DNA of 64,000 nucleotides from Microcaldota archaeon (GTDB taxonomy: Archaea > Micrarchaeota > Micrarchaeia > Micrarchaeales > Micrarchaeaceae), in NCBI GenBank assembly GCA_021827995.1, contig JAKATK010000003.1, positions 1-64,000 on the forward strand. The letters run 5' to 3'. The translations under genes and the position numbers were made by a program. The notes under the pieces are model-generated. The model made no database searches. It saw nothing but the letters and a program-made list of their open reading frames with translations, and had not been told where the DNA came from. Positions within the stretch are counted from its first letter, which is position 1; the number at the start of each line of letters is the position of its first letter. Shown one piece after another: positions 40,018 through 45,113 of the stretch.

Positions 40018-40121
40018 CGCCGGGGGTGGGAATTGAACCCACGGAAGCCATTGCTGGCTAAACAGCTTAGCAGGCTGCCGCCCTTTAGTGCGTTTTCGAC
40101 GAACCACTAGGCGACCCCGGC
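40018..40121 (-). tRNA. tRNA-Ser (GCT) with an intron in the D loop
   Basis: 104 nt on the minus strand. The acceptor is GCCGGGG/CCCCGGC with discriminator G. The anticodon stem is GCAGC/GCTGT around CTGCTAA, giving anticodon GCT. There is a long variable arm (AGCC/GGCT), and the T stem is GTGGG/CCCAC. The D stem (GCC/GGC) encloses 27 nt instead of about 9. Removing nucleotides 20-37 restores the standard D loop TAGTGGTAG. A TATA-like CTTTTATTG upstream (about 40146-40155) is at the expected distance. Confidence 0.92.
40085..40102 (-). other. Predicted 18-nt tRNA-Ser intron with bulge-helix-bulge
   Basis: The flanks fold as a canonical BHB. The outer helix is GCCT/GGGC, a bulge AAA lies on the 3' strand, the central 4-bp helix is AGTG/CACT, a bulge GTT lies on the 5' strand, and the inner helix is CGT/ACG with loop CGAAA. 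Cutting after the second base of each bulge removes exactly these 18 nt. The fold was drawn by eye. A D-loop intron position is non-canonical. Confidence 0.78.
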
Positions 40122-40258
40122 GCGCTTAGTAGTTTCTAACAAAACAATAAAAGCCTATGTCGGTCTCTTATCGAGTATTCCTGCGTACTGCCGCTGCAGT
40201 ATTGAAAGGCTTTTATAGACGTAGCGCAAAGAGAGTAGCCGCTACGAGAGGTGCGAAA

Positions 40259-43208: not shown

Positions 43209-45113
43209 TTACTGCACTGCCCCGAAGGTCGCGCTGGGCATTACCCCATTGGGCGGGTATGCTCTAAGACGGAACCAGTAAACGTTCAGCGGGTTGGCGG
43301 CCTGGTTGTTGTTGGTTGCCGATATACCGATATAACCGCTTGTGGCACCGTAATAATTAGGTGTAACATAACTGGTGGCTGAGAGGCTCGTAAGTTGACT
43401 CGCCGATATCGTCGACCCGGGGAACAGGCTAGCACTCCATGTCCCTCCGGCATTGGTGACCTGTTCGGTATACACAGTATCGATTGAGGCGGCATATCCG
43501 CCGTCTACAACCCACGCAACGTAGTCGTTCAGGAAAGAGATCCAGCCGTTGCCGTTGTACCCGTTTTCACCTATGAAGCGGTAACCAGTCGGGTAGTTTG
43601 GCCCAGTGGTCAGGTCCGCGACTATGCCGACCCTGGCATTACTCTGCGAGCCGTAGCTGAAGCTCGATTCTATTATGTAATAACCGTTATTCGCGTATTG
43701 TGTGGAACCGATATACGCTACAGGAGTGCTGGCACCACCGTCAGTTGGTGCAGTGGACGTTTGCTGCAAGTAGCCATTTGCCGTGGTCCATGTCGAAGCT
43801 CCACCATACGGACCTAATAAGGTGAAACCGCTCCATGACTTGCCACCATATTGTTCGAACACATTGGCACCGTTGTCGTACTGGCCGTATGGGCTGGAAA
43901 GCTGCGGGGCTTCGCCCGTAGGACCAGAAGCCGACATGACATCGTTCGGCATGAAGTTCATGTATATAATCGTGGACCCGCTGAAGCCGCTTGGGAGCTT
44001 GACCCACACAATAGCCGTACTGGAGCCGCTGCAGCCGCTCTCGCACCATGCCTCGAGGGGTGTGACGCCACTGCACGATTGCGAAATGCACGGTCCGCCA
44101 GAAGTGAACTCCACGTTGCTCCACTGCTGGTTTATCCCGTTGTATGTCACTCCATTGTACGTGAAGGCGGAATATCCTCTTATGCTAAGCATCTGCTGGA
44201 ACGGCGATGGCGTTGTGCCTGACGTAGAGAGGCTAATCTGGACGTATGGGATTGCGAAGCCAGCAGTCAAGGTACCAGAACCATCGATGTTAGCGGTCGT
44301 AGACTCGGCCGACTGGTTCGCTATCACCATGTTGCCGGTGCTGCTGCTCCAGCCAGTGAATATGTAACCAGAGTCTGGGGTAGCAGTTATAGTTATGCTG
44401 TTGCCTGGCGCTTCCTGGACCGTATTGGTCGGCGTTGTGGTACCTGTGTCAGCTGGCGATACGGAGAATTCCACCTGGTAAAGTGTTGAGGTAGTGGCGA
44501 TAGAAGTTGTGGTTGTTGTAACTCCTCCAGATCCGCCACCGAAATAGCCGCCGAACGATGCGCTGCTCGTGCCTGCCTCCTTCGCCGTTATCGTAGCCAT
44601 CTTCGAGTAGGCTGTCGGAGCAGAGCACGGGCTGAAGCAGTAGCCAAGCCAGACGTAGCCTGCGAAGGGCGTCCCTATCGGCGCGTTCGCGGGTATCTGG
44701 CCGTAGGCAAATTTGCTGGCATTGAAGTCCACCCCGACTATCTGGCCCGGTACCAGTACCCCAACGGACACGGCGTTCGCGCAGCCCGTGGCGGTGCACG
44801 TGAAGTTTATCGGTATGCCGTTCTGGTTTAGCGCCTCGGCATGTGCGGCGACGAAGACCCAGTCCCCATAATAGTCCCTTCCGGTCGTCTGGCCGAAGGT
44901 TATGCCTATACCGTTGGCCGTGTATATCGGGTTCCTGCAGACGAAGCCGGCCTGGGCGATGCAGGCCTGCGGGCCGAGGTTGGAGCCGTTGAACACGCCG
45001 AGTTCGAAGAGCGCAGCGAGTACTACTGCGATTATCAGGATTGCCCAGCCGTAAGTCATCAGATACTCCATCGCCGACTGCGCTTTCATATCCCTCTTCG
45101 TTTTCCCAAACAT
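43209..45113 (-). CDS. Type IV pilin-like modular surface protein, copy B, with InlB-like and DUF2341 domains
   Basis: 634 residues. The leader MFGKTKRDMKA ends at QSAMEYLMTYG, followed by a hydrophobic helix (class III signal). Residues ~30-175 are the conserved Cys-containing domain shared with copies A and C. A Gly/Thr-rich linker leads to a divergent InlB-type B-repeat (about 220-290: ITATPDSGYIFTGWS). A DUF2341 domain with a lectin-like C-terminal half follows (about 295-634: IIYMNFMPNDVMSASGPTGE). It is probably a large extracellular adhesin on a pilin-type stalk. An 11-nt palindrome lies 8 nt upstream of the ATG. Confidence 0.85.
   Translation of the reverse strand: MFGKTKRDMKAQSAMEYLMTYGWAILIIAVVLAALFELGVFNGSNLGPQACIAQAGFVCRNPIYTANGIGITFGQTTGRDYYGDWVFVAAHAEALNQNGIPINFTCTATGCANAVSVGVLVPGQIVGVDFNASKFAYGQIPANAPIGTPFAGYVWLGYCFSPCSAPTAYSKMATITAKEAGTSSASFGGYFGGGSGGVTTTTTSIATTSTLYQVEFSVSPADTGTTTPTNTVQEAPGNSITITATPDSGYIFTGWSSSTGNMVIANQSAESTTANIDGSGTLTAGFAIPYVQISLSTSGTTPSPFQQMLSIRGYSAFTYNGVTYNGINQQWSNVEFTSGGPCISQSCSGVTPLEAWCESGCSGSSTAIVWVKLPSGFSGSTIIYMNFMPNDVMSASGPTGEAPQLSSPYGQYDNGANVFEQYGGKSWSGFTLLGPYGGASTWTTANGYLQQTSTAPTDGGASTPVAYIGSTQYANNGYYIIESSFSYGSQSNARVGIVADLTTGPNYPTGYRFIGENGYNGNGWISFLNDYVAWVVDGGYAASIDTVYTEQVTNAGGTWSASLFPGSTISASQLTSLSATSYVTPNYYGATSGYIGISATNNNQAANPLNVYWFRLRAYPPNGVMPSATFGAVQ

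Follow-up and report, generated by a model that had tools for sequence, protein, structure and literature searches.

An 18-nt bulge-helix-bulge intron at position 20/21 of tRNA-Ser(GCT) in Micrarchaeota

Introduction

Archaeal tRNA introns usually lie at position 37/38, as a first-pass annotation of the DNA studied here rightly held, yet position 20/21 is already on the published list of archaeal noncanonical intron positions (PMC4090602). We describe an intron at 20/21 in the tRNA-Ser(GCT) gene of a Micrarchaeota archaeon (assembly GCA_021827995.1, designated G000), within the first 64,000 nucleotides of contig JAKATK010000003.1, which is the stretch analyzed and is called the window. As in the noncanonical introns described previously, the site is independent of the anticodon loop and is marked by a bulge-helix-bulge (BHB) motif with 3-nt bulges and a 4-bp helix. 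The intron differs from these in being very short, at 18 nt, and whereas Crenarchaeota and Nanoarchaeota have been named as rich in such introns (PMC4090602), the host here belongs to Micrarchaeota.

The closest described systems are ARMAN-1 and ARMAN-2, which are from the same phylum and, like G000, have several noncanonical introns per genome (4fz2, 9w2k; PMC6379350, PMC12397907). Their multiple introns and their three-unit ε2 splicing endonuclease have been reviewed (PMC4033280, PMC6379350, PMC12397907). Multiple tRNA introns at positions other than 37/38, spread over several tRNA genes per genome, also occur in Thermoproteales (PMC4033280). The Thermoproteales enzyme, however, is a heterotetrameric (αβ)2 rather than the ε2 type found here, and we noticed no G000 gene carrying two introns. 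Setting aside the primary 2011 ARMAN paper, we found neither a description of the tRNA-Ser(GCT) 20/21 intron across Micrarchaeota nor, in the literature on the ARMAN endonuclease, a test of this intron; neither tRNA nor introns come up in the paper on Ca. Micrarchaeum harzensis A_DKE. The intron position and the enzyme type have been described already, and the tRNA-Ser(GCT) gene itself is no surprise to specialists. The present analysis adds a phylum-wide series of genes with and without the intron, along with three-way covariation in its central helix. We conclude, with a probability of about 95%, that the tRNA-Ser(GCT) gene is functional, apparently present in one copy, and interrupted at the noncanonical 20/21 position by an 18-nt BHB intron, for which we propose removal through an ε2/RtcB pathway.

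Structure of the gene and its BHB motif

The pre-tRNA-Ser(GCT) gene is 104 nt in length, belongs to class II, and runs on the minus strand from 40121 to 40018, ending with discriminator G73; all parts described below are on this strand. It reads GCCGGGGTCGCCTAGTGGT-TCGTCGAAAACGCACTAA-AGGGCGGCAGCCTGCTAAGCTGTTTAGCCAGCAATGGCTTCCGTGGGTTCAATTCCCACCCCCGGCG. Exon 1 (19 nt, 40103..40121) comprises the acceptor strand, the 5' strand of the D stem, and the D loop up to position 20, with a boundary matching that of intronless relatives. The 18-nt intron UCGUCGAAAACGCACUAA (40085..40102) lies between positions 20 and 21, and exon 2 (67 nt, 40018..40084) extends from A21 through G73. The anticodon GCT (40071..40069) is located in a loop, CTGCTAA, that has no interruption. 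The strand is confirmed, and these coordinates, the identity of the tRNA, its intact anticodon loop, and its D-loop intron agree with the first-pass annotation. By sequence reading, a TATA-like element, TTTTATTG (40145..40152), may occur 24–31 nt upstream of the mature 5' end.

The intron and its flanks form a strict BHB motif, with 3-nt bulges on opposite strands, a 4-bp helix between them, and helices on either side. The central helix H pairs AGUG of the exon (A14, G15, U16, and G18; 40105..40108) with CACU of the intron (40087..40090). The 5' bulge is GUU (40102..40104) and the 3' bulge is AAA (40084..40086). The D stem itself serves as the outer helix, and the inner helix h' pairs CGU (40099..40101) with ACG (40091..40093). 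Cleavage after the second base of each bulge, that is at GU|U and AA|A, is predicted by the BHB rule and by the junction seen in intronless relatives as well. These cuts would leave exon ends of GGU and A21 and restore a standard tRNA with the D loop UAGUGGUAG, the same textbook loop that had been proposed at first, along with a perfect BHB. The spliced 86-nt form folds as a clean class II cloverleaf (−43.5 kcal/mol by RNA folding), in which every stem and tRNA-specific base is intact.

The gene was detected above cut-off, insert included, in a whole-genome search with the Rfam tRNA model (49.3 bits, E = 7e-10). The nearest class II Rfam model, tRNA-Sec, aligned end to end with a score of 38.6, below its gathering score of 47. 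The gene was missed by the Rfam gathering search restricted to the window and by ARAGORN with intron mode on or off.

The same site across Micrarchaeota

Among 60 related genomes, 44 (including G000) match the tRNA-Ser(GCT) gene. Pattern surveys of 301 Micrarchaeota genomes resolved 134, the other 167 having a divergent exon, a missing gene, or other introns; two long-gap matches (G173:C6 and G285) and a second match in G241 were discounted as chance. An intron at exactly the 20/21 junction was found in 50 of the 301 genomes, distributed over 25 genera and five families, and an uninterrupted gene was found in 84. Many of these 84 carry the exact junction predicted for the spliced G000 gene, CCTAGTGGTAGGGC / CCTAGTGGTAGGGCGGCAGCC, and an 18-nt deletion in G000 can produce this junction at a single placement only, namely the BHB cut.

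The 50 genomes contain 43 distinct introns of 15–59 nt, among them a 17-nt intron, AUGCGCAAGCACUCUAA, in G034. In every one of the 43, the 3' bulge reads either AAA or AGA. The central helix takes the forms AGTG/CACT, AGAG/CTCT, and AGCG/CGCT, such that three Watson-Crick types are seen at pair 16 (U-A, A-U, and C-G), and the helix is fully paired in 32 of the 43. Pairing in the inner helix was observed at 119 of 129 positions, as compared with a mean of 61 (sd 5.3, max 77) in 2000 shuffles of the 3' strands, although kinship among the sequences means that this test overstates their independence; against this, several genera differ in their inner stems and helix types. On this evidence, compensating changes maintain BHB pairing at the 20/21 site of tRNA-Ser(GCT). 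The insert is not due to chance, since the boundary given by the BHB rule is that of the intronless relatives, the deletion has a unique placement, and 50 relatives carry compensating changes.

Several observations weigh against this interpretation. By energies for protein-free RNA, the BHB does not give the lowest-energy structure: a shifted pairing, UGGU/ACUA, is more stable by 3.2 kcal/mol, and BHB occupancy is ~5%. Most relatives can form the shifted register too (154 of 172 positions paired, compared with 161 of 172 for the BHB), and helix H contains one mismatch in 11 of the 43 distinct introns. Finally, the genome is 88% complete, which leaves a little room for a second tRNA-Ser(GCT) gene. 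As to the energies, nearest-neighbor models penalize bulges. Energy alone is therefore not decisive between the registers, and covariation decides: in the AGAG lineages two of the four shifted pairs can no longer form, and in the AGCG genome one cannot, whereas the BHB is intact in all of these. The register-shifted hairpin was rejected as the working structure because it is broken in the AGAG lineages.

The minimum-energy fold, a continuous hairpin with no BHB, would suit a mature tRNA that retains the 18 nt, with a hairpin of their own closing the enlarged D loop. We consider such retention very unlikely, as the insert varies several-fold in length among relatives with an inner stem of free sequence, many sister genomes have no insert, and the features that are conserved, the bulge letters and helix H, are relevant only to cutting.

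Copy number

The 88%-complete genome yielded no second tRNA-Ser(GCT) gene, intronless or otherwise; an intronless copy had been raised in the first-pass annotation as grounds for regarding the present gene as a pseudogene. A decayed pseudogene with a D-loop insertion, its function supplied by another gene, would find some precedent in the partial copies of other tRNAs (Val, Ala, and Glu) in this genome, and the other gene might lie in the 12% that may be missing. This explanation is nonetheless highly improbable and was rejected, given the intact stems and tRNA-specific bases, the lack of a second gene among the sequences available, and the retention of a BHB-forming insert at the same spot in 50 relatives, usually in the sole match. 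The most used serine codon is AGC, as counted in three genes. Because AGC is the commonest serine codon and no second gene was found, splicing of this functional tRNA-Ser(GCT) is very probably essential, with a small doubt arising from genome completeness.

Splicing enzymes

We identified one splicing endonuclease in the genome, encoded at G000:C1:27020-28093. It aligns with the ARMAN-2 structure 4fz2 over 354 residues (E = 1.9e-163) and is a single αN-α-βC chain of the ε2 type, with two tRNA_int_endo matches within one frame. The three-unit architecture suspected at first glance was therefore the one found. The catalytic residues Y207, H221, and K252 align with Y236, H251, and K282 of ARMAN-2, and loop residues Y131 and K132 with Y160 and K161 (ARMAN-2 numbering from PMC6379350 and PMC12397907); hence both the triad and the loop Tyr/Lys pair of the ARMAN enzyme are conserved. 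Relatives of the endonuclease occur in 280 of the 301 phylum genomes and, among the matches listed, most span nearly the whole protein. The genome also encodes the ligase RtcB (E = 1.2e-162).

We infer that cleavage and ligation take place in the cell through these two enzymes. The transcript would fold with its D arm extended into a strict hBHBh' motif, the ε2 endonuclease, as a homodimer of the three-unit chain, would cut at GU|U and AA|A, and RtcB would join the exons into an 86-nt tRNA decoding AGC and AGU codons. Removal of a true intron by another activity, either self-cleavage or a different nuclease, is extremely improbable. We found no point in its support; the motif is a strict BHB, an ε2 endonuclease with a conserved active site is encoded, and a group I or II intron was rejected because it would have to be much longer than 18 nt.

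The first-pass annotation held that the intron position demands an endonuclease of relaxed specificity. This was overstated, as a strict BHB is also accepted by the narrow-specificity α4 and α'2 enzymes (PMC4033280, PMC6379350), and so no relaxed enzyme needs to be invoked for the Ser intron by itself. A better case for one comes from another intron of this genome, the relaxed 12-nt intron of tRNA-Leu(CAA).

Other tRNA genes and the window

The Ser intron is one of a set, as noncanonical introns occur in at least five other tRNAs of the genome, with predicted cuts that obey the BHB rule and mature lengths that are normal. Their positions, assigned by hand, are 13/14 in tRNA-Ile(GAT) (29 nt), 29/30 in tRNA-Val(TAC) (15 nt), 58/59 in tRNA-Leu(CAA) (12 nt, the loop beyond the helix being just 5 nt), and 59/60 in both tRNA-Lys(TTT) (25 nt, one helix mismatch) and tRNA-Arg(TCG) (28 nt). 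The five loci are L095 (G000:C13:49916-49985 and upstream), L040, L038, L043, and L047. No tRNA-Ser(GGA) was seen among the 43 tRNA matches of G000; it may sit in the missing part of the genome or behind an intron.

Partial tRNA copies that have no normal 5' part were observed for Val(TAC) (G000:C22:6445-6504, L046), Ala(TGC) (G000:C13:37248-37298, L044), and Glu(CTC) (G000:C20:58321-58375, L045), each with a fuller copy elsewhere in the genome. In the partial Val(TAC) copy, the end of the 29/30 intron (CATAA) is still present, and the 3' flank is the same. These copies are possibly pseudogenes, integration scars, or the 3' halves of split genes. A degenerate T-arm-like motif, GACGACAA...GTTCGnAnnCG, occurs within ~40 nt downstream of tRNA genes at L023, L030, L036, L037, L048, L040, and L046. 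A strict version has four matches, at least three of them directly after tRNA genes; the motif was not found after tRNA-Ser(GCT). Elsewhere in the window, a 634-amino acid open reading frame (43209..45113, minus strand) starts with MFGKTKRDMKAQSAMEYLMTYGWAILIIAVVLAALFELGVFN; by eye, this resembles a large surface protein with a signal peptide of the type IV pilin or archaellin kind.

Gain and loss of the intron

Within the genus of G000, the 18-nt intron of this genome is accompanied by 36-nt introns in G001 and G004 and by no intron in G003. Intron presence was mapped onto a maximum-likelihood tree built quickly from 99 endonuclease proteins and required at least 21 changes, seven of them forced by well supported branches, as compared with a mean of 31.8 for shuffled data. 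Gains and losses are inseparable on this tree, because it is based on a single gene and 38 of its 96 inner branches are poorly supported. It is a tentative and rather unlikely idea that Micrarchaeota tRNA-Ser(GCT) has a hotspot at position 20/21, where unrelated mini-introns have been repeatedly gained as well as lost. If true, this would point to an active process of BHB-intron insertion in the phylum instead of one old intron lost repeatedly.

Common tRNA finders can overlook very short introns that lie outside the anticodon loop, as ARAGORN did here, and consequently small archaeal genomes may appear to lack essential tRNAs. Micrarchaeota with and without the 20/21 intron form natural matched pairs for the study of BHB intron turnover and of recognition by the three-unit enzyme.
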